This document shows, piece after piece, positions 1,443 through 42,060 of a DNA stretch of 42,254 nt. This DNA comes from Candidatus Omnitrophota bacterium (GTDB lineage Bacteria > Omnitrophota > Gorgyraeia > B26-G9), in the NCBI GenBank assembly GCA_016213925.1, contig JACQZH010000023.1, positions 1-42,254 on the forward strand, in the 5' to 3' direction. Position numbers and translations under genes: made by a program. The notes beneath the pieces are model-generated. The model searched no databases. It was not told the DNA's origin and saw only the letters and a program-made list of their open reading frames with translations. Every line of letters starts with the position of its first letter. Position 1 is the stretch's first letter.

Positions 1443-4400
1443 ATGCAGAAATCCGGAAAAATTTTTAATACGAATAAGATTATTTCTATAGCACTTGTGC
1501 AAGCGCTTTTGTTTGCCGTCCCCTTATGGGCGGAAAATTCCCTGATTGATGAAAAAGACGGATTATGTACCCTTTCTCCCGATATCCATTTAGAAGTCAA
1601 TGTATTTAAAGCTGTTTATCAGCAGGCTGTAAATTTACTGCGGAAAAAATCAATCGTAGAGCAGTTGTCAAAAGAATCTTTGTTTAGGGAAGCTATCCTT
1701 AAAAGCCGGGCCGATTCAGGAAGAGTAAAATTAGAAAGACTAGTTATTAAGTTATTTGCCCGGAAAGCTAATGCTGAAGAAGAGTCCATTCTTATTAAAA
1801 AAAACGAGGCGGCATCCTTGCTTGGGCGGCTCATGAAAAAAGAGATGATTACGAAGAAAGGGACCGTAATTTCGTTGAGCGATCTATTTAGAGCGGTCGC
1901 GGAATTAAGCGATAGTTATTCCCAGGATAAGAAAGATATGTTTTATTATCTTATCCGGACTCTGAACGAAAAGGAAATTTTCGATAATGAGTATACAGCT
2001 CTAGATATTTCCCGGATGCTCGTAAGTTTTTCTGGGCCGGAGCGTTTTGAAGCAGAGCAGGAGCTGGTAAATTTGATTATCTCTGTGGCTGAAGATAATT
2101 TAGCTGAAAATAAAATCGCTGATTTTTTGAATGAGGTTTTGCCTGCATATCGTTTATCAATAGAAAACGAAGAAAAGATTATTCGAATACTGAATTTAAA
2201 AGAAAGAGCAGCCCGGGAAGGAATTATAAAATCTGAAAATGGATTTGCGCAGGCCGTTTCTAGTTTGAGAAATTCTAATTTTTACTATGCTGGGGAGGCC
2301 CTTAAAAACATTATCGTTTACGCGAGAATAAATCCGCTTTTTGCCGAAAAAACATTAGATGATAAAAAAATGAGTAAACAGCGTATTTTGAAAGAGTCAA
2401 TACGTAATGTCATTTCTACTGTAAAGGGAAGTTATCGGTTGTACCCATTATTGCGTCAGACAGTAAAAGACACGTTTTATCTTTCGAGTTCGAAGATGGA
2501 GGAAATTGACAGGTTATGCCGTATTGCGGAACGCGAAGTAAATGTGAGTACGCATAAGGGGCAGGACTTATATAATCCATTGCATCTTTTGAGGATATTA
2601 AAAGATAATCACCAGCGCCGGGGCAATAGCCCAGAAGTAACCAAGGCGCTTAAGCGTTTACTGGAGATAACCCGGGAGTTATCAAACGAAAAAAAAGAGA
2701 TGATTTCAGAATCAGAGCTAGCTGGGGTTGCCGACAGTAAAATAAGAGATAGTATAAAACAAGCCAATGCGGATTTTAAAAAAGGCAGAAAATTAGAAGC
2801 AGTAGTGATGCTTACAAAATTACGGCAGCAGATATACTTAAAAATTATTTCCAAAATGCAGGAAGCGGAAAAGGCTAATTTTAAAGATATCCGCCGCTGG
2901 GGCACTCATATGGATAGAGCGGAGCAATCGTCTCAAACCGCGCTTACCTTGATGGAAATTGACCTGCTCCTTGAACAGAAGATTAATGACTATTCCGGTG
3001 ATTTATTGAAAGAAGTAACTGATAAGCTGGCAGCCAGCCAAAACGGGAGATTGATTTCTCAAGCTATGCTTGCGGTTTATGTTATCGCTAAAAACGCGGC
3101 CTTAAGCGGATTGGGAGATAAAGGGCTTTCTGTTTATGCAGACTATCTTCTAGTTATGTCTGAAGCTAATGGGTATGGCCAGCTTGATTTATGCAGAATT
3201 TACGGGTTTATTCATCAGATAAGGCTGCTTATAGAAAAAGAAATTGTAAGTTTATCCGAAGATTACACATGGAGGGTAGCGGCTTTAATATCGGATGAGC
3301 AGCAGGAAAATCCTCAAACTCTGGGTTTTGTGCAGGATTTTTTGACAGCAACTACTATCCGGCAGTTCGGAGAACGTATTATTATGAGTATAGAACAAAA
3401 CTTTAAAAACTTAATCGAAAAAGATGAGACAGTTTCCGGTTTTCAGCTTGATCCAGTAATGCTTGAACAAACCGCAGCGAGGATTGAGCCGCATTTTGGA
3501 AAAGAAAAAGGCGATGTTATTTGGCTGGAAGATGGCAAGGGAATAGATGTGAGCACAATTGGAGATAAAGCGGCCGGCTTAAGTATGATGCTCGGGAAAC
3601 ATTTTAATGTTCCGCCGGGATTTATCGTTATTGGAGATAAAAATGAAAAAAAATTACCAAAATATTTAAGTGATAAAATCAAGGCACAGATCCGCGTATT
3701 TGAGAAAAAAACCGGCAAAAAAATTAATGATTCTAAAAACCCCTTGATTTTGTCTTTGCGGGCTACTTTCCCTGTCCCAATGCCGGGGATATTCCCCACA
3801 GTTACTAATTTTGGGATGAATGATAAAACAATGGAGGCTTTGGCTAAACGCTATAACCGGAAATTCGCTTTAAGCTGTTATGTGCGGTTTTTAAGGAGTT
3901 ATTATGAAGCGATGGATGATAATTTTGATCAGCTGGATTATCCGTTTATCCCTAAGGATGCAAGCGTGCAAGAAATGGAAGAAATATTATTATTTTATAA
4001 AACTGCGGCGTTTTTAAATGGGATAAAAGTCCCGGATGATCCTTATGAACAGATTGAAAATATTATCAGTAAAATAACCTATCATCCCATGAGGGGTAAA
4101 GTTGCTTTAAGCTGCGCTTTGCACGGCATACCGTCAGATTGGTTAGTGAATGTTGTGGTTCAGGAGATGAAATTCGGCAACCTGGAAAATTCATATACTG
4201 CGGTTGTGCATACGAGAAATACTCTTGACGGAAGTCCGGAATTAGAGGCGAATGTACTCTACGGAGGCCAGGGAGAAGATTTAGTTACGCCAAAAGGAGA
4301 GGTTATAACTGAAAATGTTTTGCCGGTTGATGACGCTGTATTTTTAAAAAACGTAAGCGTTATATTAGAAAAAGAATTTCAAGGGCCGGTAGAACTAGAA

Positions 4401-5903
4401 ATAACTAACCAGGAAGGGGAAATATTTTTTTTACAGGCGAGAATTGCGAAGTTACATTCGCATGCTTCGAAAAGGGCATTATTAGATATGGCACAGGAAG
4501 GGATAATGAGCGAGGCAGAAGCCTTAAAGCGGATAAAGAAAGAGCAAACGGAAGAATTACCCGCGGTTTCTGCTAAAGAAAGGCATTTTGCAGAAGGCCT
4601 GGGTATTTCCGGAGGGGCGATCAGCGGGCCGATAGCGCTGACGATAGAGAAGGCCATGGAATTCACTAAGGCCGGAAGAAATTCTGTTCTTGTTTTAATG
4701 ACTACTCCGGCTAGAGATATCCAGGATAGATACGCTAAACAAATCGGCGTATTAACTGTTCATGGGACATCTTCAACCCATTATGCTGAATGGTGCCGGA
4801 AGCTGAATAGGCCGTATATCTCAATGGTTGAGATGAGTATAGATATTGATAAACGGACAATTAACCTCGGAGGAAAAATTTTAACAGAGGGAGATGTATT
4901 GACTATTGATGGGATAAACGGAAAAATTTTTGAAGGAGAGAAAGAGATTATTAATAAAGCCGGTATTCAAGGAGAAGGCGATTTTTCGGAACAGCCGGCG
5001 CATCTTCGAGATATTAATAAAGTAAAAGATAAAATAGTTGAGGTTCTTGGAAAGGATTATGAGGCTGATATTGATCATGGGGTAACACATGCCCAAGATC
5101 TTATTGAAAAGGCCGTAAATTTAGCGGGAAAATTGCAAGTGACGGACAAAATCGATTGGAAGGTATTGACCGCGGCTATTTGTTTACACGATATCGGTTC
5201 AGCCCAAGAGCTGCATGGGCAGGAGAGCGCGGCATTTGCTAAAGATTTATTAACCGAGATAGGTATTTTAGACAACGCTCAAATCCGCAAGGTGGAAGAG
5301 GCTATTATTCTTCATGAAATCAGAACTGATAACGCTAGCACCATGCGTAAGCAGGCCGGGCTCGAGGCGCAGTTTCTTTATGATATTGACGTTTGGGATG
5401 CGTTCGGAATAAAAGGCATATACCGCTATATAGCAATATATCTTAAGCGCGGCAAAGATTTAAATCATATTAAAGTTGAGGTTATAAAAAACGTGAAGAA
5501 ACGTTTTAAAACCATAACTTTCAAGCAAACGAAAAATTTAGCGCGGGATGATTTTAAAATTTCCCGTTCTTTTTTTGAGCAATTATCAAGGGAAAAGTAC
5601 AAGCAAGATTTTAGGCTTGGCGCTACAGGGGTGGTGTGTTATATCCGGCAATATCTTCAAGAGCATCCGGCATGGGCGGCTTATCAAGTCATTAGGCAGC
5701 TGGAATCAGAAGTCTCCGTAAAAGATAATCCGGCGTATAATTTTATTTATTATTACTTTAGAGATTTAGAAACAGCATACCGAGCTTCGCAGGTATTTTC
5801 TATTATGCCGGAGAGTTTTATAAAAGATAGAATACCCAAAATAGCGGCAGAGGCTAAAAAGCAAACAGCACTTAAATTAACTGTTATTGAAGAGGCAATT
5901 TAG
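1443..5903 (+). CDS. Exported PPDK/PEP-synthase-like dikinase fused to an HD domain (PEP barrel missing)
   Basis: 1486 residues. A signal peptide (about 1-30, ending LWA) is followed by the LSP motif (L44-S45-P46). Residues 60-690 are charged and mostly helical, with no family I recognise. Residues about 700-1025 match the nucleotide-binding part of pyruvate phosphate dikinase: IGDKAAGL at 706, LSLRATFPVPMPGIFPTV, HTRNT, GGQGEDLV and FFLQAR. Residues 1050-1150 match the swivelling phosphohistidine domain, with catalytic-type His1113 in TSSTHYAEWC. PPDK would continue into the pyruvate/PEP TIM barrel. Here residues 1200-1340 are instead an HD phosphohydrolase-type domain (H1212, H1216, H1249-D1250, then HE and DID). 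Autophosphorylation looks possible, but the acceptor is unknown. It ends EEAI. The next gene starts 41 bp later in the same transcript. The start ATG has no clear ribosome site but gives a good signal peptide. Confidence in the domains is high; in the reaction, low. Confidence 0.85.
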   Translation: MQKSGKIFNTNKIISIALVQALLFAVPLWAENSLIDEKDGLCTLSPDIHLEVNVFKAVYQQAVNLLRKKSIVEQLSKESLFREAILKSRADSGRVKLERLVIKLFARKANAEEESILIKKNEAASLLGRLMKKEMITKKGTVISLSDLFRAVAELSDSYSQDKKDMFYYLIRTLNEKEIFDNEYTALDISRMLVSFSGPERFEAEQELVNLIISVAEDNLAENKIADFLNEVLPAYRLSIENEEKIIRILNLKERAAREGIIKSENGFAQAVSSLRNSNFYYAGEALKNIIVYARINPLFAEKTLDDKKMSKQRILKESIRNVISTVKGSYRLYPLLRQTVKDTFYLSSSKMEEIDRLCRIAEREVNVSTHKGQDLYNPLHLLRILKDNHQRRGNSPEVTKALKRLLEITRELSNEKKEMISESELAGVADSKIRDSIKQANADFKKGRKLEAVVMLTKLRQQIYLKIISKMQEAEKANFKDIRRWGTHMDRAEQSSQTALTLMEIDLLLEQKINDYSGDLLKEVTDKLAASQNGRLISQAMLAVYVIAKNAALSGLGDKGLSVYADYLLVMSEANGYGQLDLCRIYGFIHQIRLLIEKEIVSLSEDYTWRVAALISDEQQENPQTLGFVQDFLTATTIRQFGERIIMSIEQNFKNLIEKDETVSGFQLDPVMLEQTAARIEPHFGKEKGDVIWLEDGKGIDVSTIGDKAAGLSMMLGKHFNVPPGFIVIGDKNEKKLPKYLSDKIKAQIRVFEKKTGKKINDSKNPLILSLRATFPVPMPGIFPTVTNFGMNDKTMEALAKRYNRKFALSCYVRFLRSYYEAMDDNFDQLDYPFIPKDASVQEMEEILLFYKTAAFLNGIKVPDDPYEQIENIISKITYHPMRGKVALSCALHGIPSDWLVNVVVQEMKFGNLENSYTAVVHTRNTLDGSPELEANVLYGGQGEDLVTPKGEVITENVLPVDDAVFLKNVSVILEKEFQGPVELEITNQEGEIFFLQARIAKLHSHASKRALLDMAQEGIMSEAEALKRIKKEQTEELPAVSAKERHFAEGLGISGGAISGPIALTIEKAMEFTKAGRNSVLVLMTTPARDIQDRYAKQIGVLTVHGTSSTHYAEWCRKLNRPYISMVEMSIDIDKRTINLGGKILTEGDVLTIDGINGKIFEGEKEIINKAGIQGEGDFSEQPAHLRDINKVKDKIVEVLGKDYEADIDHGVTHAQDLIEKAVNLAGKLQVTDKIDWKVLTAAICLHDIGSAQELHGQESAAFAKDLLTEIGILDNAQIRKVEEAIILHEIRTDNASTMRKQAGLEAQFLYDIDVWDAFGIKGIYRYIAIYLKRGKDLNHIKVEVIKNVKKRFKTITFKQTKNLARDDFKISRSFFEQLSREKYKQDFRLGATGVVCYIRQYLQEHPAWAAYQVIRQLESEVSVKDNPAYNFIYYYFRDLETAYRASQVFSIMPESFIKDRIPKIAAEAKKQTALKLTVIEEAI

Positions 5904-5944
5904 TAGAAAAAATTAATATTGGCTATGCTAGCTGTACTGCCGGG

Positions 5945-8900
5945 ATGGAAACTTTTTCGAATAATAGAGATAAATATTCTAATATGTCTCCGCAGGTTGC
6001 GTTAAGCCAAATGTCTATTCAGAATGCTTTTAGCGGCTTTCGTGTGGATTTTACTCATGCGGCAGTTAGTATGAGAGAAGGGATCCCTAGTATTAAAAAG
6101 CTTAGGGCAGAGTTTCCGCTGCAAGATTCCGCAAAAGGCCAAGGGGTTCCGGTAAATGAATTGAGCCTTAACTCTGAAGGGACTAATCAGACTGCTCCAG
6201 TTGAGCTGTCAATACCGCAGACATGGATGGGGAAGATCAAATCAGTGCTTAAAATGCCTTTGGAAGTAATTATTTCTACCGGGTATCAAATGATAGGGCG
6301 GCCGGCACCGTCAAAGATGAGCGCTGAACACGTTATCGCAGTAGCTATTTTAGTTTCAGTGCACGCTATTTTTATGACGGCTCCTCTTGCATTACCGCCG
6401 GAATTAAGATGGAAGATGATGGAGTTTATTTATTTTAGCTGGGAAACGATTATTTCACTTGTAGCAACATTTTTCGCTGCGCATACCCATATCTCCATTC
6501 ATGAAATGGGGCATTATTTGACCGCAGGAAAAATAAATGCCTTGCCGAAAAATTTACAAGCAGAATTCACGAAAAAAAATCAAGGAAGCTTAGGCAAAAA
6601 AATCTTGTGGTATTTGTCTATGTTTTTGAAAATACCTTACGGTAAATTTGAAGGAATAAAAAAGGAAGGTTTAGGGTATTATCTTAACGCTCCGTTTAAC
6701 CTAAGGGCTTCTGCTGCCGGACCTACTTGGAGTAGAAATTTAGCTTTAGTCGGACTTGCCGGAGCAGTATTGGTTTTAGCGCCGGGATTGATTCTTAATA
6801 TATTGCCGGCTATTTATGTTGGCCGAGTGTTTTTCTCTTTGATGGCTTCAGGATATTTAACTTTTAAATATGCTGATCCGGGCAGCTATCGTAAATTTAA
6901 GGAGCAGGAGGAATTAGCTGCTCAGCAGGCTGAAGAGGCGTTGAAGCGGATGGAAGTTCAAACCGGAGAAGAACAGCTGTGGCATTTAAAGGTTGCGGAA
7001 ATTACGCGAAAAGTAAGAGAAAATGCGATGAAGGTTTTTTATCATCCTATATACGGACGCGTAATTCGTCCTGATGAATGGCGTAATTCTTCTATGGGCG
7101 GAGAACATTTATCTAATGAATTTAAAGAATCAAATATCAGCGCTCAAGAAGGAATGTTCTTGATTATAGGAGCGGAAAACGGTAACCAAGCGCAGGAATG
7201 GACTGTAAAATTGCAAAATAGGCTTAGACAGATAATTGCTAATGCTGAAAACAGCAGTGTGTTAGGTGTTGGATTGGAAGGAGGGCTTGCTACTAATATT
7301 GCCAGGGGGGATTATCCTATTCCTGAGATTAAATCGTGGCTGATGATGACCCAGGCTATATTAGACTGTAATTTAATTCCTGGCAAGGATGTGGCGATTG
7401 CTTTTGACGTAGCGGCAAGTGAATTGTCGAATAATTTCCGGATAGAAAAAGAACAGGAAGATGCGGTAGGTATGTATTTGTTTTGGAAAGATGCGGCAAA
7501 AGTTGTAATGAACAACAAGGAATTACTGCAAGTATATAAAGATGTATATTATGGCAAGTACCAATTGGATTATAAAGGGAAAAAAGTTACTATTCCGCTG
7601 TTATCGCTTGAAGATGGTTTTGCAGAGGATGATTTTGATGGCTGGAAAATGGCTAAAAAAGAATTCGGAAAAGGTATATTTATTGTTGCAGATGATTTAG
7701 CAACCACAAATGACGCGATCGTAGAAAAGTTAGCTCGCGCAGGATTGGCGGATACTCTTTTAGTAAAAGCCAACCAAATTGGAACTTTATCGGAAACTAT
7801 GCTTGCTGTATCTGTGGCGATGGCACACTATTGGAAGTTAATTTCATCACATAGGTCGAAATCGCCGGTTAACCCTTTTGAAGCGCATGTTGCGATTGCT
7901 TACCGGGCAATGGGAGTAAAGGTTGGAGGGGGGCAAAATACAGAAAGAGTTTTAAAATATCACGAGTTAAATCTAATCGAACTCAAAGCGGAAGAATTTT
8001 TTAGAGAATTTATGAAGATAGTTATAGAAACAGTGCAGACAGAAGGGTTTGAAGCTTTAGAAAATATTGAGTTGATTTTAGATGAAAAACGCTCGACAGT
8101 GAGCGCGGAAACTATAGATTTAAGCAAGGCAAAAATAACCAATATGTTAGCTGTTGAAGAGCCGACTAATGCCGGTATTCCCACAGTGGGAGTTACGATA
8201 AATGCTGGATTTAAAAATTATCCGGATTTATTAACCGGAGAAGGTGCGACTCCTTTAGGCACATCTGCTGGCTCAAATGAAGCTATTCACCTGGTCGATT
8301 CAATGATTGAGTATAGCGAATACGGAAAATTAATTGACCAATATCCAGATTTATTTAAAGAACATAAACTTTTTAAGCGCGTATATAACTTCGCAAAAGA
8401 CGTAGATCCGGATAAAATTAATAAACAAAATAATAGTGAGTTAAAAACATTATGGGAAAGAGCCGGGCGTTATGCAGGCAAAGGAACTTTAAATGCAAGC
8501 GATAATGCTCAAACCTTGATAGCGGAACATCTGATCGGGAAAAGCCTTGCGGACTTTGACCTTTTGGATGTAGATAGATTCCTTCTTGATTTGGAAAAGG
8601 AAACTGCGAAAAAACGCGGCAAGCTAGATGCTGGCGCAAGTGCAGAAGAATTAATAAAAGTTATGCAGAGAAAACAAAATTTAGGGATGAATGCGATCTT
8701 GTCTACATCAATAGCTATGGGAGAAATAATAGCAAAATTTCAAAATAAAGAACTTTGGCAGATACTGGAAGAAGAATTTGATTATATGGTGGCGATGGCT
8801 ATGCTTGAGTCAGGGGTTATTGATGTTGATAAGGAATTTCCGGAATTAGCTGGCAAAGATGATGCGGCAAAAGTAAAGTGGTTGGTGGAAAACTTATTTT

Positions 8901-9121: not shown

Positions 9122-9142
9122 GAATTCGTAATTAAGAATAAA

Positions 9143-9179
9143 AAAAGAGGCATGTTTTTGAAACATGCCTCTTTTTTTT
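9143..9179 (+). terminator. Rho-independent terminator after the enolase fusion gene
   Basis: The stem AGAGGCATGTTT/AAACATGCCTCT is followed by eight T and preceded by an A run. It closes the two-gene unit 1443-9121. Confidence 0.9.
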
Positions 9180-9267
9180 AAGGAGTTAAGCACTTTTAAA
9201 AATAGTATTTCCCGATAATCCCAAAGGATATTGACTTATCTAAAAACTATGCCCTAATTAACGTTGT

Positions 9268-9295
9268 TTGAATATTTAGAATCAAGTTGTATAAT
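9268..9295 (+). promoter_or_regulatory. Promoter placing the start codon at the transcription start
   Basis: TTGAAT, a 16-bp spacer, then a perfect TATAAT. The ATG at 9303 is only 7 nt after the -10 box, so the mRNA is predicted to be leaderless or nearly so. No Shine-Dalgarno is present. Confidence 0.65.
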
Positions 9296-9302
9296 ATAAA
9301 GT

Positions 9303-10742: not shown

Positions 10743-10761
10743 CCTGGGGCCGCTTTTTTAA

Positions 10762-10789
10762 TTAGCAATTTCCTTATATTAATTATACA
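10762..10789 (+). promoter_or_regulatory. Possible weak promoter of recQ
   Basis: TTAGCA, a 16-bp spacer, then TATACA. The start codon is 10 nt after the -10 box and has no Shine-Dalgarno, so this transcript would also be close to leaderless. Both boxes are imperfect. Confidence 0.35.
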
Positions 10790-10799
10790 ATGATTCCTT

Positions 10800-12611: not shown

Positions 12612-12636
12612 CTTTACTTATCTAACATGTTATAGT
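12608..12636 (+). promoter_or_regulatory. Sigma-70 promoter of the AEC permease gene
   Basis: TTGACT, a 17-bp spacer, then TATAGT, close to consensus. The -35 box overlaps the stop codon of recQ. The leader is about 24 nt, with AGGGGAAT ahead of the ATG. Confidence 0.7.
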
Positions 12637-12666
12637 AAAAAAAGTTATGAATAGGGGAATGATTTA

Positions 12667-13626: not shown

Positions 13627-13756
13627 AAAAACGGGAACTTTTTATCGTTTTATTTGTCAAAAGAAGGAGAAGACAAGACTTTGATAGAAATTGATTAACA
13701 CAGATAGAAAGAACAGATAAACACAGGTTATAAATTTGTAGAAAGGAGCGATTATT

Positions 13757-16806: not shown

Positions 16807-16840
16807 TTACAGTAAATTATAAATTATAAAGGAGGGTGTT

Positions 16841-32031: not shown

Positions 32032-32107
32032 TAATATTCGAATTAGGAAGAATGAAGGCAGATATATAGAACGGGGATTTATCTGGATTTCTTAAGAAGG
32101 AGAAAAA

Positions 32108-35100
32108 ATGCGAAAAAAATTAATGGCGTTTATTGCACTGGTTACTTTAAGTTCGTTTATAAATACCGAACTTTTGCTAGCGGATGCTTTGGCCGGAGAA
32201 AATTTATGTTACGCTAAGAATTGCCTTTCTCCTCAAATTATTCTCAACAAAAACCTATCAGAGGTATTCAGGTCTAATGCTGACAAATTGTTTGCAGAGC
32301 AAGAAAGCCTGATTATTCCTCAAAGCCGGCCTACGGATAACGCGTTTAATCCGCGGACAGTGGCTTTTCTCGCTCCGCTCTATAGTTTGGGTAGATTAGG
32401 AAAAGATTCCCGTGATTTTGCCGATTCTCTGGCTCAATCAGGCGTTACAAAAAAAATGGATTTTCCGACAACCGCTTGTCAGGCACGGGCCGGCGATCCC
32501 AGCCCTTACGGAGTGGTTAGTGTTTTCGCCCGTGAAGCCTCCAAGATTGATCTCTGTGAAGTTTTTGAATTAAATCATTCTTCGTCGGGGAATCAGTGGC
32601 TTAAAGACAATCGCGGACGCTGGGAAGAACTGTTCAGGCGCAGTCCCGGGAAACGCCGTAACGGCCAAGCTATCGCGCAATTAGTGCATGAGGGATTGAA
32701 GGCAGGTTTTGAAGCGTTAGATGATTCGCGCAGGCAAGCGTTGAGAATCTTTAGGCAGGAAGAAAATAAAACCCGTAACTGGCTGGATAATTATGCCTTA
32801 TTCATGGCTATTAGCGATTATCACCGGCAAAAATGGCTTTCGGAAGGCAAAACACTATCTCCGTTTGAGCTTTCTCCTACTGCCTGGACACGCTGGGAAA
32901 AAGGATTTAAAGAAAAGGATCAAGCGGTATTGAAATCATTTAAAAAATCGCATGCGAAAGAAATAGAATTTTATTTCTATGAACAGTTTATTACTCATGA
33001 ATTTCTGCGTTCAGACGCGGATTACCATCACCGTTTAGGCATTAGCCTCATGGGAGATATGCCGATTTATGTTTCCATTAACAGCGTGGATGCCTGGTGG
33101 GAACGGGAAAAAATTTTTCTGGTGGATAAAGACGGCAACCCGCTTAAGCATCCGGGAGCAGCGCCGGATTATTTTTCCGAAGACGGACAAAACTGGGCGC
33201 TTTGCCTGCCAATTGCTACATATGATTTGAATCCGGAGTTTATGGACTGGATGCAAGCGCGGGTAAACAAAGAACTGCAATTTGTAGATGAACTGCGCAT
33301 AGATCACGCGCGCTGGTTTCAGGACCTTTGGCTGGTAAAGGTTGGAAAACGAGGCATTGAAGGTAAATGGACCGACGGGCTTTGGCTGGATTTTTTGAAA
33401 AAAATCAGTGATAACGCACAGAGATTGGGCAAACGCGTATTTGCCGAAGATTTAGGATCAAAAATCAATGCGGTAGTGGATTTGCTGAAAAAATGCGGTT
33501 TGCCTGGCATGAAGGTGCTTGTTTTTGCCGTTGACCAGGGAGATACTAAGGACATTACTAATAGCCAAAAAGCGGATCCACACCACCGCGAAAACTTTGG
33601 AGAATCTTTCCTGATGGTGGGCACACATGACACGCGTACCTGGAAAGGAGTTTGGCAATTAATGGACCACCGCGTGGTCAAAATCGAAAAAACACAAAAA
33701 TTAGAACCTTTTTATCAAGGCCAGCGTAAAGCTTTTATGCATTATCTCGCGCAGCAAACAGGACAAACTTTAGATGCGGATAAATTGGAAAAAGAACAGG
33801 AGCTTCCCTTTGAAATTCTAATTGCGCTGCTTGATATGGCGCTGGGTTCGAACGCGGAAACCGTAGTTATTCCTATCTGGGATATTCTGGGTTACGGAGA
33901 AGCAGATCGCATCAATGTTCCGGGTTTTGCCGGTGATTGGGGTTTGCTTCTTACTGAAAGCCCTGAACAATTAAAAGAGCGTTTTGGAGATGAAATTGCT
34001 AAGCGCCTGCAAATACTGCAAGAGCTTATTGCCAAGCATCAGCGCGGGCCAAAGCAATACCGCCAAACTGGTAAGCCGCAAATAGTCGGTACGTTGCCGA
34101 ATATTGCCAATCACGTACCGCAAACACAGCAGCAAGGTGAAGACTTCGAAATTTTTACGGCAATCCAAGGCAGCGAGCCAAGAGAGGTTTGGGCGATTAC
34201 CAATTTACCAGCGCAACCAGGTCAACGCGTGAGCGAACGCCGCGTGAAGATGCATTTTTTACAGGAACTTCCTTCCGGCGCCCGGCTTTATGGAGTAAAA
34301 ATCAAAGCCACCGAATCCGGGCCATGGTGGCTGAACTTTGAGGCCGATGGAATGCGCAGCGGAGAGCCGGGAGCTAATACCAGCCTTTTCGTTACCCGTG
34401 AAGTTAAGTACCAACATCGCTTTGCCGGCTCAAACCTGGCGGACAATGTGGGTTTAGTAGTTAACTGGAATGATACAGAAGGCCCCTTTGAAATTTACAT
34501 CAGTAATTATAACGAATACACTTTAAACAATGAGAGTCTGAATGCCGAGCGCAGCCGCCAGGGTTATCTGCATTTTCGCGCCGGAGATATAACCTTCAGC
34601 GAAGCGAATTTCACACATTTAAATCGCCATTATGATTTTCAACTTGAAACAGAAGATACCAATTTGCCTTATTCCGGAGTAAGGCTTGACCTGGCTAAAA
34701 CACTGGGAATTAACGGAAAAACGGAAGAATATTACGCTTTCATTGACCGTGTTAACGGTGAGATCTATTTACGCTCCGGTCAGGAATTACTGGAAAAAGG
34801 TTTATTCTTCTCTTTGCCGCCGGAAGGCAGCCACCGTTTTGTAGTACAGAAATTAAAACTTGATCTTGCTCCGGGTTTATATGGCGCTAAACTTTCATAT
34901 CTCTCTTACACTCATCGGATTCTGGAAGGAAAACCCGTAGAAAATTTGCGCGGTTTGGCAATTTTAATGAAATTTTTCGGCCTAAAGCTCGATGTTTTGA
35001 GTTACGGACAGATTTTAAGCTCCGCACATCTATTAAACCTCTTGCCTGACTTATCACTTTTGCTTTCTCAAAAACATTTGGATGAAATCCTTGACGCAAG

Positions 35101-35176
35101 GGAAATTTCCATTGCGAAGATTGGAGAAAAAGTACGCTTAAGCCAATTAGAGCAGGAAATCGAGCAGTCGATATAA
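32108..35176 (+). CDS. malQ: Exported 4-alpha-glucanotransferase (GH77) with C-terminal beta domains
   Basis: 1022 residues, about twice a normal MalQ. A signal peptide (1 to about 29) precedes the LSP motif (L40-S41-P42). Residues 110-650 are a canonical GH77 amylomaltase: SPYG, WLDNYALFMAI, LGISLMGDMPIYVSINSVDAWW, nucleophile ELRID (D399), acid/base FAEDLG (E447), VGTHDTRTWKGVW (D508), and PIWDILGYGEADRINVPG near the end. It transfers malto-oligosaccharide segments between alpha-1,4-glucans. Residues 650-900 are beta-rich. A late block (YYAFIDRVNGEIYLRSG) also occurs in the next gene. The last 100 residues are helical and end EQSI. A strong ribosome site (AAGAAGGAG) fixes the start. The final five codons belong to the 209-bp repeat. 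Confidence 0.9.
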   Translation: MRKKLMAFIALVTLSSFINTELLLADALAGENLCYAKNCLSPQIILNKNLSEVFRSNADKLFAEQESLIIPQSRPTDNAFNPRTVAFLAPLYSLGRLGKDSRDFADSLAQSGVTKKMDFPTTACQARAGDPSPYGVVSVFAREASKIDLCEVFELNHSSSGNQWLKDNRGRWEELFRRSPGKRRNGQAIAQLVHEGLKAGFEALDDSRRQALRIFRQEENKTRNWLDNYALFMAISDYHRQKWLSEGKTLSPFELSPTAWTRWEKGFKEKDQAVLKSFKKSHAKEIEFYFYEQFITHEFLRSDADYHHRLGISLMGDMPIYVSINSVDAWWEREKIFLVDKDGNPLKHPGAAPDYFSEDGQNWALCLPIATYDLNPEFMDWMQARVNKELQFVDELRIDHARWFQDLWLVKVGKRGIEGKWTDGLWLDFLKKISDNAQRLGKRVFAEDLGSKINAVVDLLKKCGLPGMKVLVFAVDQGDTKDITNSQKADPHHRENFGESFLMVGTHDTRTWKGVWQLMDHRVVKIEKTQKLEPFYQGQRKAFMHYLAQQTGQTLDADKLEKEQELPFEILIALLDMALGSNAETVVIPIWDILGYGEADRINVPGFAGDWGLLLTESPEQLKERFGDEIAKRLQILQELIAKHQRGPKQYRQTGKPQIVGTLPNIANHVPQTQQQGEDFEIFTAIQGSEPREVWAITNLPAQPGQRVSERRVKMHFLQELPSGARLYGVKIKATESGPWWLNFEADGMRSGEPGANTSLFVTREVKYQHRFAGSNLADNVGLVVNWNDTEGPFEIYISNYNEYTLNNESLNAERSRQGYLHFRAGDITFSEANFTHLNRHYDFQLETEDTNLPYSGVRLDLAKTLGINGKTEEYYAFIDRVNGEIYLRSGQELLEKGLFFSLPPEGSHRFVVQKLKLDLAPGLYGAKLSYLSYTHRILEGKPVENLRGLAILMKFFGLKLDVLSYGQILSSAHLLNLLPDLSLLLSQKHLDEILDAREISIAKIGEKVRLSQLEQEIEQSI

Positions 35177-35370
35177 CTAGACTCGTCAAAAGTAGAGAGT
35201 AGTCCGCCAATTTCTTCGATGGAATTTGACGAGATCTCGCCAAAATAGAATATTTTGGCGGACGAGGAGAGAGTAGAGAGAAAACACGAAATACGAAGGC
35301 AGAATGAGCTCATAAATAGAGAGTGAATATTTTTCTTGCTACTTTCTGCTTTCTACTTAAGTAAGTAAAA
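35162..35370. repeat. 209-bp repeat, copy 1
   Basis: Identical to 42046-42254 except at two bases (35168 T/G and 35229 A/G). It begins inside the upstream gene, covering the codons for Glu-Gln-(Ser/Ala)-Ile-stop, and ends at the A of an ATG. It contains a perfect hairpin (35238-35247 with 35251-35260, loop GAA). It also has an overlapping palindromic GAGATCTC core and a third imperfect hairpin upstream; these compete for pairing and resemble an attenuator. The tail is purine-rich (GTAGAGAGAAAACACG). Confidence 0.9.
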
Positions 35371-35434
35371 TGCAGTCAGTTATTTTTTAGCCCCTCATTT
35401 AAGTATTGATACGCAGTTTTTTGGGAAATTATTT

Positions 35435-38400
35435 TTGAAGCAAGCACCAAAAGCTGAAGAAGTTTTTGAAAAGACAGGCCTGGTTTCTCAAATTAAGGTT
35501 TTAACTTTTACGGAACTTTTAAAGCTCGCAGAGGTATTACCGGCTGAAAGCCTCTGGAAAATTGCGCAACCTAAAGGCCAGGATATTATTGCCGCCAATC
35601 AGGCGGTAACCGATAAACATCTTGTGGAGGACGGATTTTTAACCGGCCTGCACTGCCGTTTATATCCTTCATTTCAGGACATCGCCTTAAAAGTTATCCC
35701 GGAGTTAAAGTCCAAAGGAGCGAAAGATGTTTATCTTCTGGGAGCTTTCCAAAAAAGCCCTATTAGCCACAAAATAAATAAATTTTTGCCGGATGATAAA
35801 TTCCATCCTTTATTCTATTCCCGGAGTGAAAAAGACGGCAATAAAGTTACTTCTATTTTAAGATACGAGGAAGCTAGGGAAAATGCTAATCATGATTTTT
35901 GGGCATCTACTTTTTCTATTGTTGATTATGAGCCGGATCCGGAAATGGGAGGCTGGGAGGGTTTTGAGTTTCTCTTAGCCCGGGCAAATGAATGTGGAAT
36001 TAGGATTGTATTGGATATAGTAGCGCAAGGCACGGCTATTGAATTTCCTTGGCTGCAAAATGAAGAATTGCAAAAAGGGCCTGTTCATTGGAATGAAGAA
36101 AAAAAAATCTGGGAGGGTTATTATTATATTCATAAGACACTTCCGGAAGATGCGCAAAAAGAGTTATTAGCTTTGGATGATGCTAGAAACTTACCGGATG
36201 CGCAAAAAGAAGAGTTATGGACAGATGAGCAGAGATTATTTGTGCAGCTGGCTAATAATATTCTTGCCCAAAATCCCGGGCATGTACTTCATTATTCTCC
36301 TAAGCTTAAACAATGGGTATTGATTGCCAATGGCCAGGATTTTGATATGAAAAAGAATAATAAACAGCCCTGGCATGATATCTTACAGCTGGATTTGAGC
36401 AATCCTTTTGTGCGGGAAGCAATTTTTGAAAAAGCGGAAAAATTAATTAATGCAGGAGCCGCTGGTTTTAGGGCAGATTGCGCTATGGCTTCAGTTATGC
36501 ATGGTGAGTACGGATTCCTAGACACTTGGTACGATTATATCGGAGAAAGGGTTGTAGAAAAAGAATTTTGGACAGAACTGATTGAAAGATTAAGAAAAAT
36601 CAGGCAGGACGCGGTTTTTTATGCCGAGGCATATTGGCTTTTTGATGTTTTGGACAAATGCGGTTTTAATTATATTTTCCAGAAGTTTACCGGGGATAGT
36701 TTAGTGAGTAATAATATTCCCGGACTGCGGGGATATCTGATTAAAACTCCGATGCAGGAACAGTTTTCCCGGCTTCATGCCGTAAATAATCATGATGATG
36801 AACCATCTTATATTAGGGATATTGATACGGAGCATTTTAAGGAGGCTCCGGAATTAACAGCAAGATTATTATTCAGGGATTTGTTAAATATCGCTGCTTT
36901 GCCTGGTAAACCGCAGATACAGGCAGAACAATTATTAGGCGGTTATTTTGCTAGGGGTACGGCGCGCTGGCATAGTTTAGATACGGTGGATGAGCCGCAT
37001 GAAATAGTTAAGATGATGGCTGCAAAAGCAGCCCAAATTAGCCGTGATGAATTGTTCAGAAAAGGGAATTTATATGTGCTGAATAACTGGTCAGGCGTAA
37101 TTTTTGGATTCCTGCGGTATCATAACAACCGCCAGGCGTTAATCGTGAGCAATAGTAATAATGAGTACTCAAATTATTATGAGCAGATATCTATTAAAGA
37201 AGCCGCGCCTTTAATGGGTATTTCCCAGCAGCCTGGGGTTTTTTATGCCCTGGTTAACCGGCTTAATGGAGAGGTTTGTTTAGTCAGCGGCGAGCAATTG
37301 TATAACAAATTGTTGAATGCGTATTTACCCGAACAAGCGCAAGTGCAGATATATATGTTTGAAGAACTTAAAGATGATAGCGGTGTTTTAAGAAAACTGT
37401 CCAAAAGAAATGAACTTCGCTGGGATCCTCCGTATATTGATTTAAAAACATTAACTTTGGAAGATGTTTGTTTGCTGGTAAATGATTTTGGGCTGAAAAT
37501 TGATTATCCCTGTGATGGGAAAATAAGCAAGGCTTTGGCATTAAAATATCTTTTAGATAAATTAACCCCAAAAGAGATTTATCAAAATTTAATCCAGAAT
37601 AATAACATTGAGATTGTTGAGTTTGCCAGCGAAGAAGAAATGATCAAAGAACAAATTAACCAATTAAGGCAAAAATTTTCCGGTAATGAAAAAATAATTT
37701 CTTTATGCCTGGCTTTGGAAATGCTAAATCAAAAAGGGCAGTTGAATAAAAAGAAGTTTCTCTGGGCGGAATCCGCAGGAAAAACCGAGATAAAAGTAAA
37801 AGATAATATGATATGTATTGCGCAAGGTGATTCTGGAATTTTGTATCCTGATACGCGGGAAGGAAAACAAAAAATTAGAGCCTGCGTAGATACTGTGGAG
37901 GGAATGATTTCCAGAAAAAATTTTAGGTCCTATGGCATTGAAGAAGAAATTACGAAATTTATTGAAGCTTATTTAATGCTTTCGGATAGAGAGATTTATA
38001 ATTTAATGATTGAATTAGCGGGTGTTTTGCCTGAAGCTTGCGATATGATCGAAGAACACGCAGAAAATATTTCCGGCAATGAGTGGCGTAGAAAGGTGGT
38101 TGATATTTTTGAAAGCGCAAATCCCAATCGGTTTATTGCTCGAGTGTGGATGAATTATTTTTGCAGAAGAGTTCCTTTGATAGAATGGTTTAATCATGAA
38201 AGTTTTGGTAAGTTTTTCGCGCATTATTTAAGCAGTAGAGGAGAAATTGATACTATATGTTCTTTTATTGAAGCAGGGTTAAAGAGGGAGAAAATTGATA
38301 CTTATTACCACTGTTTATTCTTTGAACCCTTTGTGATACAGGCATTAGCAATACATAACGAGCAAGTTGATAGGTTATTTGTGGAATTTTTGGAAAGCCC

Positions 38401-38602
38401 GCAGGAAGGCCTAGAAGAAGCGGATAGACTTAAAAGGTTTATTATCTGGGCAATGAAAAAAGCGGAAAGATTTGATTTGAAAATAAAGGATGTCCCCTTA
38501 AAAGAAATTTTATCAATTTTAGAAGCCGCGGATAAGCCTTTATCTGTCCTTGAGGCAGTTGATTTTACCCTAAATGTACAACTGTTCGAATTATCAATCT
38601 AA
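35435..38602 (+). CDS. GH13 (alpha-amylase family) enzyme with long helical C-terminus; 5' end disturbed
   Basis: 1055 residues from a TTG. GH13 catalytic signals are intact: region I IVLDIVAQGT, region II AGFRADC (nucleophile D348), region III FYAEAYW (E398) and region IV NNHDDE (D454). An amylase-C-like beta domain follows at about 570-655 (FYALVNRLNGEVCLVSG), shared with the preceding gene product. The last 370 residues are helical and unrecognised, ending ELSI. The TTG is a poor start with no ribosome site or signal peptide. The frame stays open upstream to 35369 and encodes LAPHLSIDTQFFGKLF, a good match to the N-terminal motif of the sister proteins. An ATG at 35370 reaches that frame only through a -1 shift in the T run at 35383-35388. 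The 5' end may be decayed, frameshifted or mis-sequenced. Hydrolase or transferase on alpha-glucans; exact specificity unknown. Confidence 0.8.
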   Translation: MKQAPKAEEVFEKTGLVSQIKVLTFTELLKLAEVLPAESLWKIAQPKGQDIIAANQAVTDKHLVEDGFLTGLHCRLYPSFQDIALKVIPELKSKGAKDVYLLGAFQKSPISHKINKFLPDDKFHPLFYSRSEKDGNKVTSILRYEEARENANHDFWASTFSIVDYEPDPEMGGWEGFEFLLARANECGIRIVLDIVAQGTAIEFPWLQNEELQKGPVHWNEEKKIWEGYYYIHKTLPEDAQKELLALDDARNLPDAQKEELWTDEQRLFVQLANNILAQNPGHVLHYSPKLKQWVLIANGQDFDMKKNNKQPWHDILQLDLSNPFVREAIFEKAEKLINAGAAGFRADCAMASVMHGEYGFLDTWYDYIGERVVEKEFWTELIERLRKIRQDAVFYAEAYWLFDVLDKCGFNYIFQKFTGDSLVSNNIPGLRGYLIKTPMQEQFSRLHAVNNHDDEPSYIRDIDTEHFKEAPELTARLLFRDLLNIAALPGKPQIQAEQLLGGYFARGTARWHSLDTVDEPHEIVKMMAAKAAQISRDELFRKGNLYVLNNWSGVIFGFLRYHNNRQALIVSNSNNEYSNYYEQISIKEAAPLMGISQQPGVFYALVNRLNGEVCLVSGEQLYNKLLNAYLPEQAQVQIYMFEELKDDSGVLRKLSKRNELRWDPPYIDLKTLTLEDVCLLVNDFGLKIDYPCDGKISKALALKYLLDKLTPKEIYQNLIQNNNIEIVEFASEEEMIKEQINQLRQKFSGNEKIISLCLALEMLNQKGQLNKKKFLWAESAGKTEIKVKDNMICIAQGDSGILYPDTREGKQKIRACVDTVEGMISRKNFRSYGIEEEITKFIEAYLMLSDREIYNLMIELAGVLPEACDMIEEHAENISGNEWRRKVVDIFESANPNRFIARVWMNYFCRRVPLIEWFNHESFGKFFAHYLSSRGEIDTICSFIEAGLKREKIDTYYHCLFFEPFVIQALAIHNEQVDRLFVEFLESPQEGLEEADRLKRFIIWAMKKAERFDLKIKDVPLKEILSILEAADKPLSVLEAVDFTLNVQLFELSI

Positions 38603-38700
38603 TGGTTTGGCTCATTAGTTCATTAGCTCATGAGTTCATGAGATCATGAAGAAGCAGAGAGTTGAGAGAAGCAAGCAGAGAGACTCTAAGCCTGAACTTT

Positions 38701-38740
38701 AAGAAACCTCAAGAAACATTAAGGAACCTTAAGCAACATT
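38701..38740. repeat. Four tandem 10-bp repeats directly before a start codon
   Basis: AAGAAACCTC, AAGAAACATT, AAGGAACCTT and AAGCAACATT follow each other without gaps, consensus AAGNAACMTT. They end 2 bp before the ATG at 38743. A 10-bp period puts each copy on the same face of the helix. The spacer before them (38603-38700) has only short CTCATGAG-type palindromes. Confidence 0.7.
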
Positions 38741-38742
38741 TT

Positions 38743-41700
38743 ATGAAAATACTATTAAAAATAATCTCAATATTGTTGATCCAAGTGTTTATGCTCTTGC
38801 CAACCAGCGGACTTATTGCGCATCCGTTGCCAGAGACAGAGGATTTACTCTCACCTGCGATTTGTATTGATATCGCGCAATTACAGCAGGTATTTCAGCA
38901 GGGCGTGGATAAAATAATGAAACCTGCAGAACCGGATATTCCCATGGTTACTGCTGCTCCGGAAATACTCATACAAAAGCGCTGTGTAGCGTCTGTAACC
39001 GGATATTTAAACGGGAATAATTGGACAAGTTTGGAGCAGAAAAGCCGGATCAATAATTTGCTTTACGAGTTTTCTCCGTTTATTATTACCAGTTATGGCC
39101 AAGAAATCGGCAGAGCTCAACCAGGGCTTTGCGGTTTGCTCGTAGAGTTATTGCTATCGGCAAATAGGGTTAGAAATTACGTGGCAGCGTTGAATTATCA
39201 TAAAACAGAAGGGCATTTTATTCAATACGCGATTAGCGCTTTTCAGGGTGCCGGAATATATAGCGCGGTAGAAGACCTGGAATGGCTGCAGGCAACTTTG
39301 CGGGATCAGCCTGATAAATGTTACCCGCTTTTTATTAATTATTTGAGCGGTTGGATTACTGCCTTGGGTTTTACAGACACGCAAATTATGGCGAAAAACC
39401 TCCGTTTGTTTAAAGGCAGGAGCCATAATGGATTTCAAAGTAAAGATTGGAACAAACGGCATTTATTCTGGATGGAAAAAATACTGTCCCTGATGCCGCA
39501 AGGCCAAGAGAAATATTTATTCTTTAATCAAGTTTGTGATAACTTTTTTGCCGAAATTACGGATTTGTCGAGGAGAGATAATATCCTGGTAATAGAGGAG
39601 ATCGGGACGTTCTGGGCAAAGTCCGGATTAAAAGAGAATTGTGAATATTTGTTAGGCAAAATCATTAATTTATATCAGCTAGCGCAGTGGGAGTGGGATT
39701 ATTCTTTTTTGGACGAAACTATCATGCGCTTGGCGCAAACAGCGGCAATCCCGGAAGAAAAATTTTCGCCGCTGATTCCTGGAGGAAGATTTCTGCCTTT
39801 ACTGGTGAATAAGGATAAACAGCAAACGGGCGCGCTTAAAACGCGGATAATTACCAAAGCCCTTGCCGCTGATTTCGGGGCATTTTTTGTTAAGGACGGA
39901 CAATTGATTAAAAAGATGGAGGATGTTTTAGTAAATGCTTCAGCGTGGGGTTCTCTGCAGAGACGGGGATATGATAAAGAAGATTATAGAAGTTATAGAA
40001 TCAGAGAAAGAAATTTGCTAAAGCAGGTTTTAACTGCGCTTAATCAATCGGGACAGGAATTCGGCGCAGCGGCTAAGGAGGTGGAATTTTTAGGCCGTAG
40101 AGGGGAAACAGAATTGCTCAGCGAATATCTGGAAGCGTTAAAAACATATTTGCAAATACAATTATTATTATACGGAAAATATCAGAAAACATCTTTCAGT
40201 GATGTGATTAACCCCTGGCTTGCGCATTTTTATCAGGATGACAATTTTAAGCCGCTGATTAATCTGCTGATGGAAAAGATTGTTCAAGAATATCAGCAGG
40301 ATGGGCGTTTGGAAGAACTGGAGCAATGCGGACCTGCTCTTGCCCGTATTTCTCCGGAAATAGCTGGGATTCTTAAACGATTATGTTTCGATTTGGATAA
40401 CTCATTTACAGACCAAGAAAAACGATTAATTATTGGCCTTAATCAGCAGCAGGCGGTATTGTCCCCGGCGCAGGCACGGGAATTGAAAAAAAACTTTCCC
40501 GAACCGAGTAGTTTCCGCGGCGCTTTAGATATAATTACCTTATTCCCGGAATTTTTTAATTACCCTGCCAGTGATGTCAGTGCGGTTTTGCGGTTAACAG
40601 GTAGTTACCAGTTGGGCTCAAACGTGTCCGGGCTTAGGCAGAAAGCAATCAGGGAATTATTGAGCTCTCTGCGCGAAGTGTATCTTAAAAAAAATTATTT
40701 AGAAAGGCCATGTTTCCAATCCTGGGCCAGGCTGCTATTTTTCAAGGTTCTCGCGGCTTTTACTGAATTTTGCACGAACGAAAATATTTTTCTGCAAATC
40801 GTAGAGCTGGAAAAACGCTACGCGCGGCTTTTTTCCGCGGAAATTGTTACGGCGCTTTCCGAACAAAACTATCAAAGAAACGCTGCTGAGAGCCTTGGCC
40901 GCTGGGCAGGGCATTTTGGCGTAGCAGAAGCCGGAGATTTGGGCCAAGAGACGCAGGATGCCCTGCTGGCTTTAGTGAAATTAACTAGAAGCGATGAAGA
41001 AAAACAGGAGTATATCTCTTTTTTAGACCTCATGCTCGCTAATCGGTTTGACCCGCATGTATTTTTGAATACACTTTGGGAGTTAGATAGGCAAGGGATT
41101 ATAGACGCAGGGCAATCTGCGCAATCTATATTAGCTATGAGCCATACGTTTGTTCGCGAAAAAGTTAATCCGCAGATATTTTTCAGCGCTGTCCCCTTTC
41201 TGCTTAAACAAGGTTTTACCGCTAATGACATCTTTGCTGACTTAGGAAGCGCTGAATTACTGGCGCAATACTTGAGCCTGATGGATGAAAATTTGACTTC
41301 AGAGGAGGACATTTACCGCTATGTATTTGTGATGCATTTTGCGCTGGCTTTATTTAAAGCGCATCCGGAATGGGCGGATGAGCAACAGATAAAGAGCATT
41401 GTCCGCGGTATTGTCCGGCATTATCATCCGGATTTGGCTCCTGTGGCTATACATAAGCAGAGTTGTTCCTGCCACAGCTGTACCAACCGAGGAAATATGC
41501 CAGGGATAATGAACATGATTGAAAGTTTAATTGAGCAGCTATATCCCGGCTTGCAGAGGGAAAAAGCAACATCCGATAATATCGCAGGCATGATCATAAA
41601 CGGAAAAAAAATAGTAGAGGAAATCGTCTTGCAATCAAGACGGTTATTTAGTATTGGAAATGACGCGGTTGGTGATTTGGCGCAAATAAGAGAGGCCTAT

Positions 41701-42060
41701 CGTTCCACAGTTTTTTATGATTTCTTCCGGGCTCTTGAAATATACGCGCGCGAGTGTCCTGAAGATTTACACTATGTGGAAATTACCATTGATGAACTGC
41801 TGCGGCGGATCTGTGTAAAAAAAGACGGTAAGAAGTTTATTTTTAATACCGGCTCTGACTGCTCTGTTCTTGAGTCCTATGTAATGATCAGGAATAAGCT
41901 GGGGCCGAAATTACTGACCCAGGGGGCTGTTGATATTGATTTCTTTGGCAATAGAAAAGGATTGCCAAGTGAGGAAGGGCAATATGCGTTGCCGGATTTA
42001 ATAGAAAGGGGAAAAATCGGTTCTCCTGCGTATTTTCAATTTGTTGAGCAGGCGATATAA
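38743..42060 (+). CDS. Exported 1105-residue helical protein of the tagged set, function unknown
   Basis: I place the start at the ATG 38743, which gives a clean signal peptide (MKILLKIISILLIQVFMLLPTSG). The longer TTG start at 38662 would put 27 charged residues before it. The LSP motif is at L36-S37-P38, followed by IAQLQQVFQQGVDKI. The rest is almost wholly alpha-helical with no enzyme motif I recognise; a helical-repeat scaffold is possible. Near the C-terminus are a YHPDL (H895-P896-D897) and a tight cysteine cluster CSCHSC (C908, C910, C913), which may bind metal. The last 130 residues (DGKKFIFNTGSDCS..., VDIDFFGNRKG) look like a small separate domain. It ends EQAI, and the last five codons lie in the 209-bp repeat. 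Last gene of the glucan run, so it may organise or regulate the enzymes. Confidence 0.75.
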   Translation: MKILLKIISILLIQVFMLLPTSGLIAHPLPETEDLLSPAICIDIAQLQQVFQQGVDKIMKPAEPDIPMVTAAPEILIQKRCVASVTGYLNGNNWTSLEQKSRINNLLYEFSPFIITSYGQEIGRAQPGLCGLLVELLLSANRVRNYVAALNYHKTEGHFIQYAISAFQGAGIYSAVEDLEWLQATLRDQPDKCYPLFINYLSGWITALGFTDTQIMAKNLRLFKGRSHNGFQSKDWNKRHLFWMEKILSLMPQGQEKYLFFNQVCDNFFAEITDLSRRDNILVIEEIGTFWAKSGLKENCEYLLGKIINLYQLAQWEWDYSFLDETIMRLAQTAAIPEEKFSPLIPGGRFLPLLVNKDKQQTGALKTRIITKALAADFGAFFVKDGQLIKKMEDVLVNASAWGSLQRRGYDKEDYRSYRIRERNLLKQVLTALNQSGQEFGAAAKEVEFLGRRGETELLSEYLEALKTYLQIQLLLYGKYQKTSFSDVINPWLAHFYQDDNFKPLINLLMEKIVQEYQQDGRLEELEQCGPALARISPEIAGILKRLCFDLDNSFTDQEKRLIIGLNQQQAVLSPAQARELKKNFPEPSSFRGALDIITLFPEFFNYPASDVSAVLRLTGSYQLGSNVSGLRQKAIRELLSSLREVYLKKNYLERPCFQSWARLLFFKVLAAFTEFCTNENIFLQIVELEKRYARLFSAEIVTALSEQNYQRNAAESLGRWAGHFGVAEAGDLGQETQDALLALVKLTRSDEEKQEYISFLDLMLANRFDPHVFLNTLWELDRQGIIDAGQSAQSILAMSHTFVREKVNPQIFFSAVPFLLKQGFTANDIFADLGSAELLAQYLSLMDENLTSEEDIYRYVFVMHFALALFKAHPEWADEQQIKSIVRGIVRHYHPDLAPVAIHKQSCSCHSCTNRGNMPGIMNMIESLIEQLYPGLQREKATSDNIAGMIINGKKIVEEIVLQSRRLFSIGNDAVGDLAQIREAYRSTVFYDFFRALEIYARECPEDLHYVEITIDELLRRICVKKDGKKFIFNTGSDCSVLESYVMIRNKLGPKLLTQGAVDIDFFGNRKGLPSEEGQYALPDLIERGKIGSPAYFQFVEQAI

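Follow-up and report, generated by a model that had tools for sequence, protein, structure and literature searches.

A 42,254-nucleotide stretch of Candidatus Omnitrophota bacterium DNA (contig JACQZH010000023.1; the window) encodes a set of large proteins that share two short motifs at their ends. One is a front motif built around Leu-Ser-Pro (LSP) near the N-terminus, in most cases behind a signal peptide; the other is a hexapeptide tail that directly precedes the stop codon. In this genome and its relatives the two motifs recur in near one-to-one pairing on unrelated protein bodies, with constraint at the protein level and a tail that is specific to the lineage. The available evidence supports the tagged proteins, as we call those bearing these ends, acting outside the cytoplasm, and we give about even chances to a dedicated extracytoplasmic sorting route for which the two ends would serve as a two-part address. 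A sequence-only reading of the window had proposed a two-ended sorting or assembly code. The data support such a code, and the observation is stronger than first claimed, with the choice between sorting and assembly undecided.

The window belongs to a draft genome (G000) of 2,270,590 bases in 81 contigs, and contains 17 main open reading frames (ORFs). Family labels were computed; f1 is the family of the window's genome, and f29 and f3 are other families.

Both ends are sharply bounded motifs

A front profile was built from an alignment of 23 N-terminal rows (A1). The consensus comprises a Sec-type signal peptide with an "LIQAFL"-like core, followed by [TC]-L-[SA]-P-x-[LIV]-[NQ]-[IL]-[ND]-x3-[FL]-Q-x2-[FY]. 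Across 101 aligned fronts the motif starts at median residue 43, T or C stands before the L, and the preferred residues are [LIV] at +4, [IL] at +6, [ND] at +7, [FL] at +11, Q at +12 and [FY] at +15; the front is informative only from about -2 to +15 around LSP. Signal peptides were judged from the 23-row alignment together with a hydropathy rule, and by these measures have a basic n-region, a hydrophobic core and small residues at the cleavage site. Of 101 tagged proteins, 77 have a Gln within the hydrophobic core, compared with 24 of 243 other signal- or transmembrane-like starts. The front profile gave no match to solved structures at E up to 1.

The tail consensus is L-[IV]-E-Q-[AS]-I, with the last residue directly before the stop codon. 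Among 106 tails, L occupies -6 in 48, I or V occupies -5 in 50 and 31, E occupies -4 in 46, Q occupies -3 in 55, A or S occupies -2 in 67 and 29, and I or V occupies -1 in 93 and 6. Information is restricted to positions -6 to -1, while -12 to -7 hold at most 0.35 bits. The C-terminal signal that the sequence-only reading had described is present, although it is not the dipeptide proposed there, since six positions are conserved. At the DNA level, conservation starts about seven codons before the stop and ceases at the stop, all three stop codons are used and tail codons vary; the constraint therefore acts on the protein, as had been suggested. Codon use within the tail is skewed (96 tagged genes), with ATA encoding the terminal Ile in 50 of 91 cases, compared with a background share of 32%. 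The codons GCG/GCA and TCG/TCA are also preferred over background in the tails of these genes.

The two ends are paired

In a pool of 518 ORFs from 645,418 bases of G000, window included, a simple rule found a hydrophobic start plus front motif in 12 ORFs and an [AS][IV] end in 24, with 10 having both (Fisher 3.5e-13). The front profile was then applied to 1185 ORFs of at least 60 residues with their own stop codon, drawn from eight f1 genomes; the pool was made by a greedy ORF caller and contains some spurious ORFs. At a front-profile E below 1e-3, 96 of 106 matches end in [AS][IV], compared with 36 of the 1079 remaining ORFs. The genome-wide excess of such endings among LSP proteins, the absence of which the sequence-only reading had named as a refutation, is thus strong. 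Stretches of relatives were picked by their front matches, with tails unseen at selection. Three of the 23 training rows (L048:2731, L048:5191 and L051:7352) were chosen via their tails; pairing is 22 of 23 inside the training rows and 74 of 83 outside them, a count free of these three. By genome, pairing was 30/34 (G000), 6/6 (G001), 5/5 (G002), 17/18 (G003), 11/12 (G006), 5/5 (G008), 12/12 (G010) and 10/14 (G011). Eight f1 ends obtained later comprised seven tagged proteins (L199, L200, L201, three in L204, and L208) and one miss.

The exceptions were followed from both sides. Ten front matches lack the tail. Two of these end in near-variants, KPII and GRGI; in three (L147, L130 and L114) the next same-strand ORF bears the tail, so these are probably split genes; and one (L107:355) runs into undetermined bases, with a tail two ORFs further. 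Conversely, a strong tail score (7 or above) without a front match occurs in 18 of 1079 ORFs. Nine of these are cut at the 5' side by the stretch, three are the downstream pieces in L130, L147 and L107, and the remaining six, window ORF 5945-9121 among them, have a recognisable sub-threshold front; in L117 it reads LSA in place of LSP. Artefact or chance as the cause of the pairing is rejected by the enrichment counts and the protein-level conservation.

Homologues lacking both ends, which would have spoken against a code, were seen only as cytosolic-type paralogues that also lack a signal peptide. The tagged homologues in G002, G006 and G011 carry both ends, whereas the MalQ of G000 and nine MalQ-like ORFs of relatives carry neither.

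The ends are borne by unrelated bodies

With the ends trimmed, BLAST at E 1e-6 groups 124 tagged or fragmentary proteins into 89 components, of which 72 are singletons; the ends are therefore modules, with no trace of a single protein family. Tagged proteins have a median length of 945 residues (n=96). Pfam tables covered 63 of them, one being the fragment at 1-891 of the window, and NCBIfam was also used. The carbohydrate-related cargo includes GH77, debranching enzyme, GH13-like regions and carbohydrate-binding modules, and that of central metabolism includes PPDK, a domain-swapped enolase, pyruvate kinase, GlpX, class II aldolase, a TIM fragment, PGI, and PGM-like, ROK-like and NDK-like proteins. 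Other members are an NTP transferase, radical SAM/B12 proteins, methyltransferases, SF1 helicases, a histidine-kinase ATPase, GGDEF, HD and deaminase proteins, CYTH, uridine-kinase-like, DHH, GT9, SLT and trypsin-like proteins, and HEAT and TPR repeats; for many proteins no family was assigned. PADLOC matched parts of helicases. Catalytic-region motifs of the GH77 and enolase proteins align with solved enzymes (residue roles from general knowledge), the radical-SAM CxxxCxxC is present in all three tagged proteins checked, and GGDEF and deaminase motifs are present; the ROK pattern was not found by regular-expression search in the tagged protein. Tagged enolase is restricted to one of 12 f1 genomes and tagged GH77 homologues to some f1 genomes. 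Canonical enolase and pyruvate kinase are encoded elsewhere in G000.

Cysteine makes up 0.52% of mature bodies in tagged proteins (n=96), 0.66% in untagged signal-peptide proteins (n=66) and 1.42% in cytosol-like proteins (n=282). The tagged proteins differ from the cytosol-like set (p 5e-23) and not from the untagged exported set (p 0.58). Judged by sequence, they combine an exported-type composition with predicted cytoplasmic-type folds.

In four genera a tagged protein lies between two PilZ genes (L051:263-6986, L069:3133-9334, L119:3038-6285 and L141:3570-10048). A gene for a PAS/HD-GYP-type protein is next in L051, L069 and L141; in L119 it does not lie between the genes. The arrangement hints at control by cyclic di-GMP. 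Tagged protein L069:5531-8944 was considered as a core component of every code-bearing genome and rejected: it has matches in 10 of 58 genomes overall, several via the front end only, and long matches occur in some f1 genomes and in none outside f1.

Distribution, and a second version in another family

All 12 f1 genomes have front matches (A1, E up to 0.01), 8-48 in each, and both motifs span at least eight genera of f1. Among 46 genomes of the same class outside f1, 22 have one to six weak matches (best 7.8e-7) and 24 have none. A scan of the phylum at E up to 1e-5 gave matches in at least 10 of 237 genomes, five of them f1 among the matches listed. Many matches outside f1 span only the signal-peptide half, on giant ORFs, indicating that the LIQAFL signal-peptide type is wider than the code. 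LIQAFL-type signal peptides without LSP head giant ORFs in several families of the class (L171-L187). Five of ten stretches with outside giant ORFs include the stop, and these end QYSV, QQV, SGL, QAA and QAA; the QAA of G039 belongs to f29, and QYSV formally fits [AS]V.

In f29 (G039, G075, G079 and G122) all five ORFs with a hydrophobic start and TLA(x)P end in [AS]A, compared with 4 of 128 others (Fisher 3.9e-7, an optimistic value because the TLA(x)P pattern was fixed after some ends had been seen). Three more f29 fronts (L223, L224 and L225), on stretches without the stop, were not counted. [AS]A ends occur in 3 of 935 f1 ORFs; in other families of the class the single TLAP protein (L229) ends TAL, and 6 of 222 others end [AS]A. 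A front that is kept while the tail changes fits a co-evolving reader. The special signal peptide, the hexapeptide form of the tail, the family-wide and partly class-wide spread and this tail swap had all escaped the sequence-only reading.

In family f3, two large ORFs with unrelated bodies, enolase-like L211 (G013:C53) and MalQ-like L212:1679-5932 (G013:C14), share the motif PTLxxLxxxPxNP...F..D.G behind the signal peptide; their C-termini read YKK and LTN. This motif is perhaps a third code.

Tagged proteins of the window

All features described here are on the forward strand. The six large ORFs said to carry an [LM][SA]P motif do so, one of them only in frame 5' of its listed start, and in four the motif follows a signal peptide, starting at residues 44, 45, 40 and, from an internal ATG, 36. 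With the fragment at 1-891, seven proteins end in AI or SI, using all seven codon pairs that had been reported, and the ordinary genes end as described (LQ, SD, VK, RT, DF, ER, GD, FR, KK and VE).

The ORF at 1-891 is a 3' part with RHS/DUF2963-like repeats, whose N-terminus lies outside the window; it ends RPNAI, with last codons GCT ATC. The protein at 1443-5903 (1486 residues) has a signal peptide, the front motif LSPDIHLEVNVFKAVY at 1572-1619 (residues 44-59; profile match at 7.2e-16) and the tail VIEEAI at 5883-5900, and has PPDK-like ATP-binding, PEP-utilising and HD regions (Pfam). In the next, at 5945-9121 (1058 residues), the front motif MSPQVALSQMSIQNAF is at 5984-6031 (residues 14-29) and the tail LIDRSI at 9101-9118. 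A HEMGH sequence (M50-like by eye) inside a hydrophobic region is followed in the same protein by an enolase part with reversed domain order, the C-domain (385-679) preceding the N-domain (744-941).

The largest tagged protein of the window, at 24976-32031 (2351 residues), has a signal peptide, the front motif LSPALQISNEFLKVIF at 25108-25155 (residues 45-60) and the tail LILVAI at 32011-32028, and contains starch-binding-like modules, a GH77-like region and an amylo-alpha-1,6-glucosidase (GDE_C). Orthologues in L023 and L024 carry both ends, and two contigs titled Candidatus Omnitrophota bacterium encode the tagged GDE protein. It is followed by a GH77 4-alpha-glucanotransferase at 32108-35176 (1022 residues) with a signal peptide, the front motif LSPQIILNKNLSEVF at 32225-32269 (from residue 40) and the tail EIEQSI at 35156-35173; a tagged homologue in G002 is 49% identical.

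At 35387-38602 the front motif LAPHLSIDTQFFGKLF (35387-35434) is in frame with, and immediately 5' of, the listed TTG start of ORF 35435-38602, which has a GH13-like region and the tail LFELSI at 38582-38599. The last tagged protein, for which a Pfam search gave no family, is listed from 38662 to 42060. The front motif LSPAICIDIAQLQQVF at 38848-38895 begins at residue 63 of this ORF, or at residue 36 if translation starts at the internal ATG at 38743, from which a signal peptide is read; the tail FVEQAI is at 42040-42057. A 195-bp repeat, with one mismatch between copies, occupies 35176-35370 and 42060-42254. Both copies begin at the last stop-codon base of a tagged gene (32108-35176 and 38662-42060), and at the position of the first one would expect the signal peptide of the tagged gene that follows, 35387-38602.

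A proposed two-part address and its alternatives

The signal peptide, the cysteine depletion and the type of cargo indicate that tagged proteins work outside the cytoplasm, and the combination of unrelated bodies with sharp ends suggests that something recognises the ends. In the sorting route that we propose, the tagged protein would cross the inner membrane by means of its Sec-type signal peptide, which has a polar Gln in the core. Envelope machinery would then recognise two elements, LSP close to the new N-terminus and the C-terminal LIEQAI hexapeptide, and would carry or dock the tagged protein at its destination; the body would play no part in recognition, and two-end reading would restrict acceptance to complete polypeptides. 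Since the cargo enzymes need cytoplasm-type substrates (ATP, S-adenosylmethionine, sugar phosphates), the destination would most likely be the cell exterior, or the interior of a partner or prey cell to which the bacterium is attached. The reader, the destination and the completeness check are what we infer from the pattern of the ends and cargo. Host dependence has been described for the phylum (PMC10066038), and open cytoplasmic contact for a related predator and its victim (PMC13153191).

In its fullest form, the proposal is of an Omnitrophota delivery route with a lineage-specific two-ended zip code (TL[SA]P with [E][Q][AS]I in f1; TLAP with [AS]A in f29) and a co-evolving receptor. Rapidly exchanged copies of cytoplasmic enzymes, giant and poor in cysteine, would by this route leave the cell or enter a partner or prey and run metabolism there, at most as a near-complete glycogen-to-pyruvate set; we advance this tentatively, with confidence well short of even. 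Variable cargo looks more like an effector repertoire than a fixed pathway, whereas the broad glycolytic coverage in G000 argues for the pathway and against the repertoire. The data do not decide whether the proteins are exported beyond the cell or assembled in the envelope.

Several observations weigh against a sorting route. Neither reader nor translocon was identified in the genomes examined, and no PDZ-like partner turned up, though no search was aimed at one. Cargo reaches about 9,600 residues (G002 C31), a heavy load for any translocon; by a crude measure, the mature part includes one or more transmembrane-like stretches in 30 of 96 tagged proteins; and the tagged proteins at 5945-9121 and 35387-38602 are without a signal peptide. 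Four of the ten tail-less front proteins are unexplained (L143 twice, L152 and L119), the f1 protein L210 (G004) has the front and ends GGSA, and the f29 counterpart consists of five proteins under a partly post hoc pattern. In the tagged pyruvate kinase several residues close to the active site are substituted (residue roles from general knowledge), and simple regular-expression searches of tagged proteins did not find the NDK histidine and PGM serine motifs.

Short terminal peptides serve encapsulation in known systems, and the ends could likewise be assembly tags that gather exported proteins on a periplasmic or surface scaffold or shell, an extracytoplasmic metabolic body running from glycogen to pyruvate. 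The tagged set of G000 would suit such a body, spanning GH77, debranching enzyme, PGI, PGM-like and ROK-like proteins, the FBPase GlpX, class II aldolase, a TIM fragment, enolase, pyruvate kinase, PPDK and an NDK-like protein, as would its coexistence with the canonical cytosolic enolase and pyruvate kinase. However, the cargo varies between genera (with tagged enolase in one f1 genome and tagged GH77 in few), many tagged proteins are helicases, methyltransferases, kinases or of no recognised function, and a nucleotide supply is not evident, the candidate ATP/ADP translocase (PF03219) being found in none of the 12 f1 genomes. We regard this as a serious but rather improbable alternative. A simpler arrangement would dispense with a sorting machine: the ends would bind each other, or a neighbour's end, as N-terminal strand and C-terminal helix, clamping exported proteins or polymerising them into a coat. 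Nearly all members have both ends, the hydrophobic front positions +4 and +6 alternate as in a strand, and the tail residues L, I, A and I at -6, -5, -2 and -1 could line one face of a helix; a giant-protein coat has been proposed for V. archaeovorus (PMC10066038). Structural support is lacking, however, a single AlphaFold2 model of 32108-35176 (three rows) having a mean pLDDT of 35, and we consider such binding unlikely.

Alternatively, the tail might be recognised by a quality-control factor or a tail-specific (PDZ) protease of the periplasm, with the front merely marking signal-peptidase processing. Tail-specific proteases are known to bind small hydrophobic C-termini, but a tail kept on dozens of proteins per genome, precisely paired with a front, and the similar front with a different tail in f29 make this very improbable. 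Plain shared ancestry, in which the two ends of one ancestral gene persist without present function on bodies replaced by recombination, would account for the codon skew of the tail and for tandem clusters (L103, L140 and L141) through copying of the ends. Yet conservation goes no further than the stop codon, each of the three stops occurs and both motifs persist over at least eight f1 genera, so that selection is needed, and we give this explanation hardly any weight.

If the two-part address is correct, bacteria possess a sorting system in which the cargo is read at both ends, and it occurs in a phylum with giant exported proteins of unknown function. With the code, the cargo of any such genome could be listed by a simple test on sequence, and what Omnitrophota export would become a defined set, 8-48 front-motif proteins per f1 genome. 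A surprise in its own right would be the presence outside the cytoplasm of a second set of glycolytic enzymes, tagged and diverged, and the tail swap between f1 and f29 offers a natural handle for receptor discovery through co-evolution.

Comparison with known systems

At the coarsest level the two-ended code is a sorting signal, but we know of no system that a two-ended, membrane-free code matches. No account of one was found in the open-licence PMC literature (subscription papers and preprints lay outside its scope). Encapsulation peptides and the peroxisomal signals PTS1 and PTS2 are short terminal peptides that gather unrelated metabolic enzymes in a single compartment, and glycosomes contain glycolysis. 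Those signals need one end, on cytosolic proteins, whereas the Omnitrophota code marks both ends and begins with a Sec-type signal peptide.

The giant ORFs described from the same phylum are likewise large exported proteins of unknown function (PMC10066038). The passages on them describe no terminal motifs, the word "C-terminal" does not occur in the main text, and most tagged proteins are far smaller than those ORFs. Type IX secretion resembles the proposed route in having a C-terminal signal and a second translocation step after Sec export, but its signal is a folded immunoglobulin-like beta-sandwich domain rather than a hexapeptide (PMC11285876); no type IX C-terminal domain appeared in the Pfam tables of the 63 tagged proteins.

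Exosortase (PF09721) is disfavoured as the reader. It is found in 9 of the 12 f1 genomes and absent from G001, G003 and G009 (drafts; G009 69% complete), which still have 30, 48 and 11 front matches. Exosortase matches occur in G000 (G000:C46:36757-37518 and G000:C77:2059-2412), where a separate PEP-CTERM-like system may therefore coexist. The PEP-CTERM/exosortase and GlyGly-CTERM/rhombosortase systems resemble the Omnitrophota code in that a short C-terminal segment is common to many unrelated signal-peptide proteins of one genome. PEP-CTERM is a C-terminal sorting tag (PMC1569441), as is GlyGly-CTERM, which was defined by comparative genomics and has up to 13 members per genome; tags of both kinds consist of a motif, a transmembrane helix and a basic cluster (PMC3237569). 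The consensus LIEQAI has neither the Gly-rich motif nor the helix and basic tail of GlyGly-CTERM. In contrast to both, the Omnitrophota tag consists of six residues at the stop codon; it has neither transmembrane helix nor basic cluster, and a conserved motif at the front of the same protein accompanies it.

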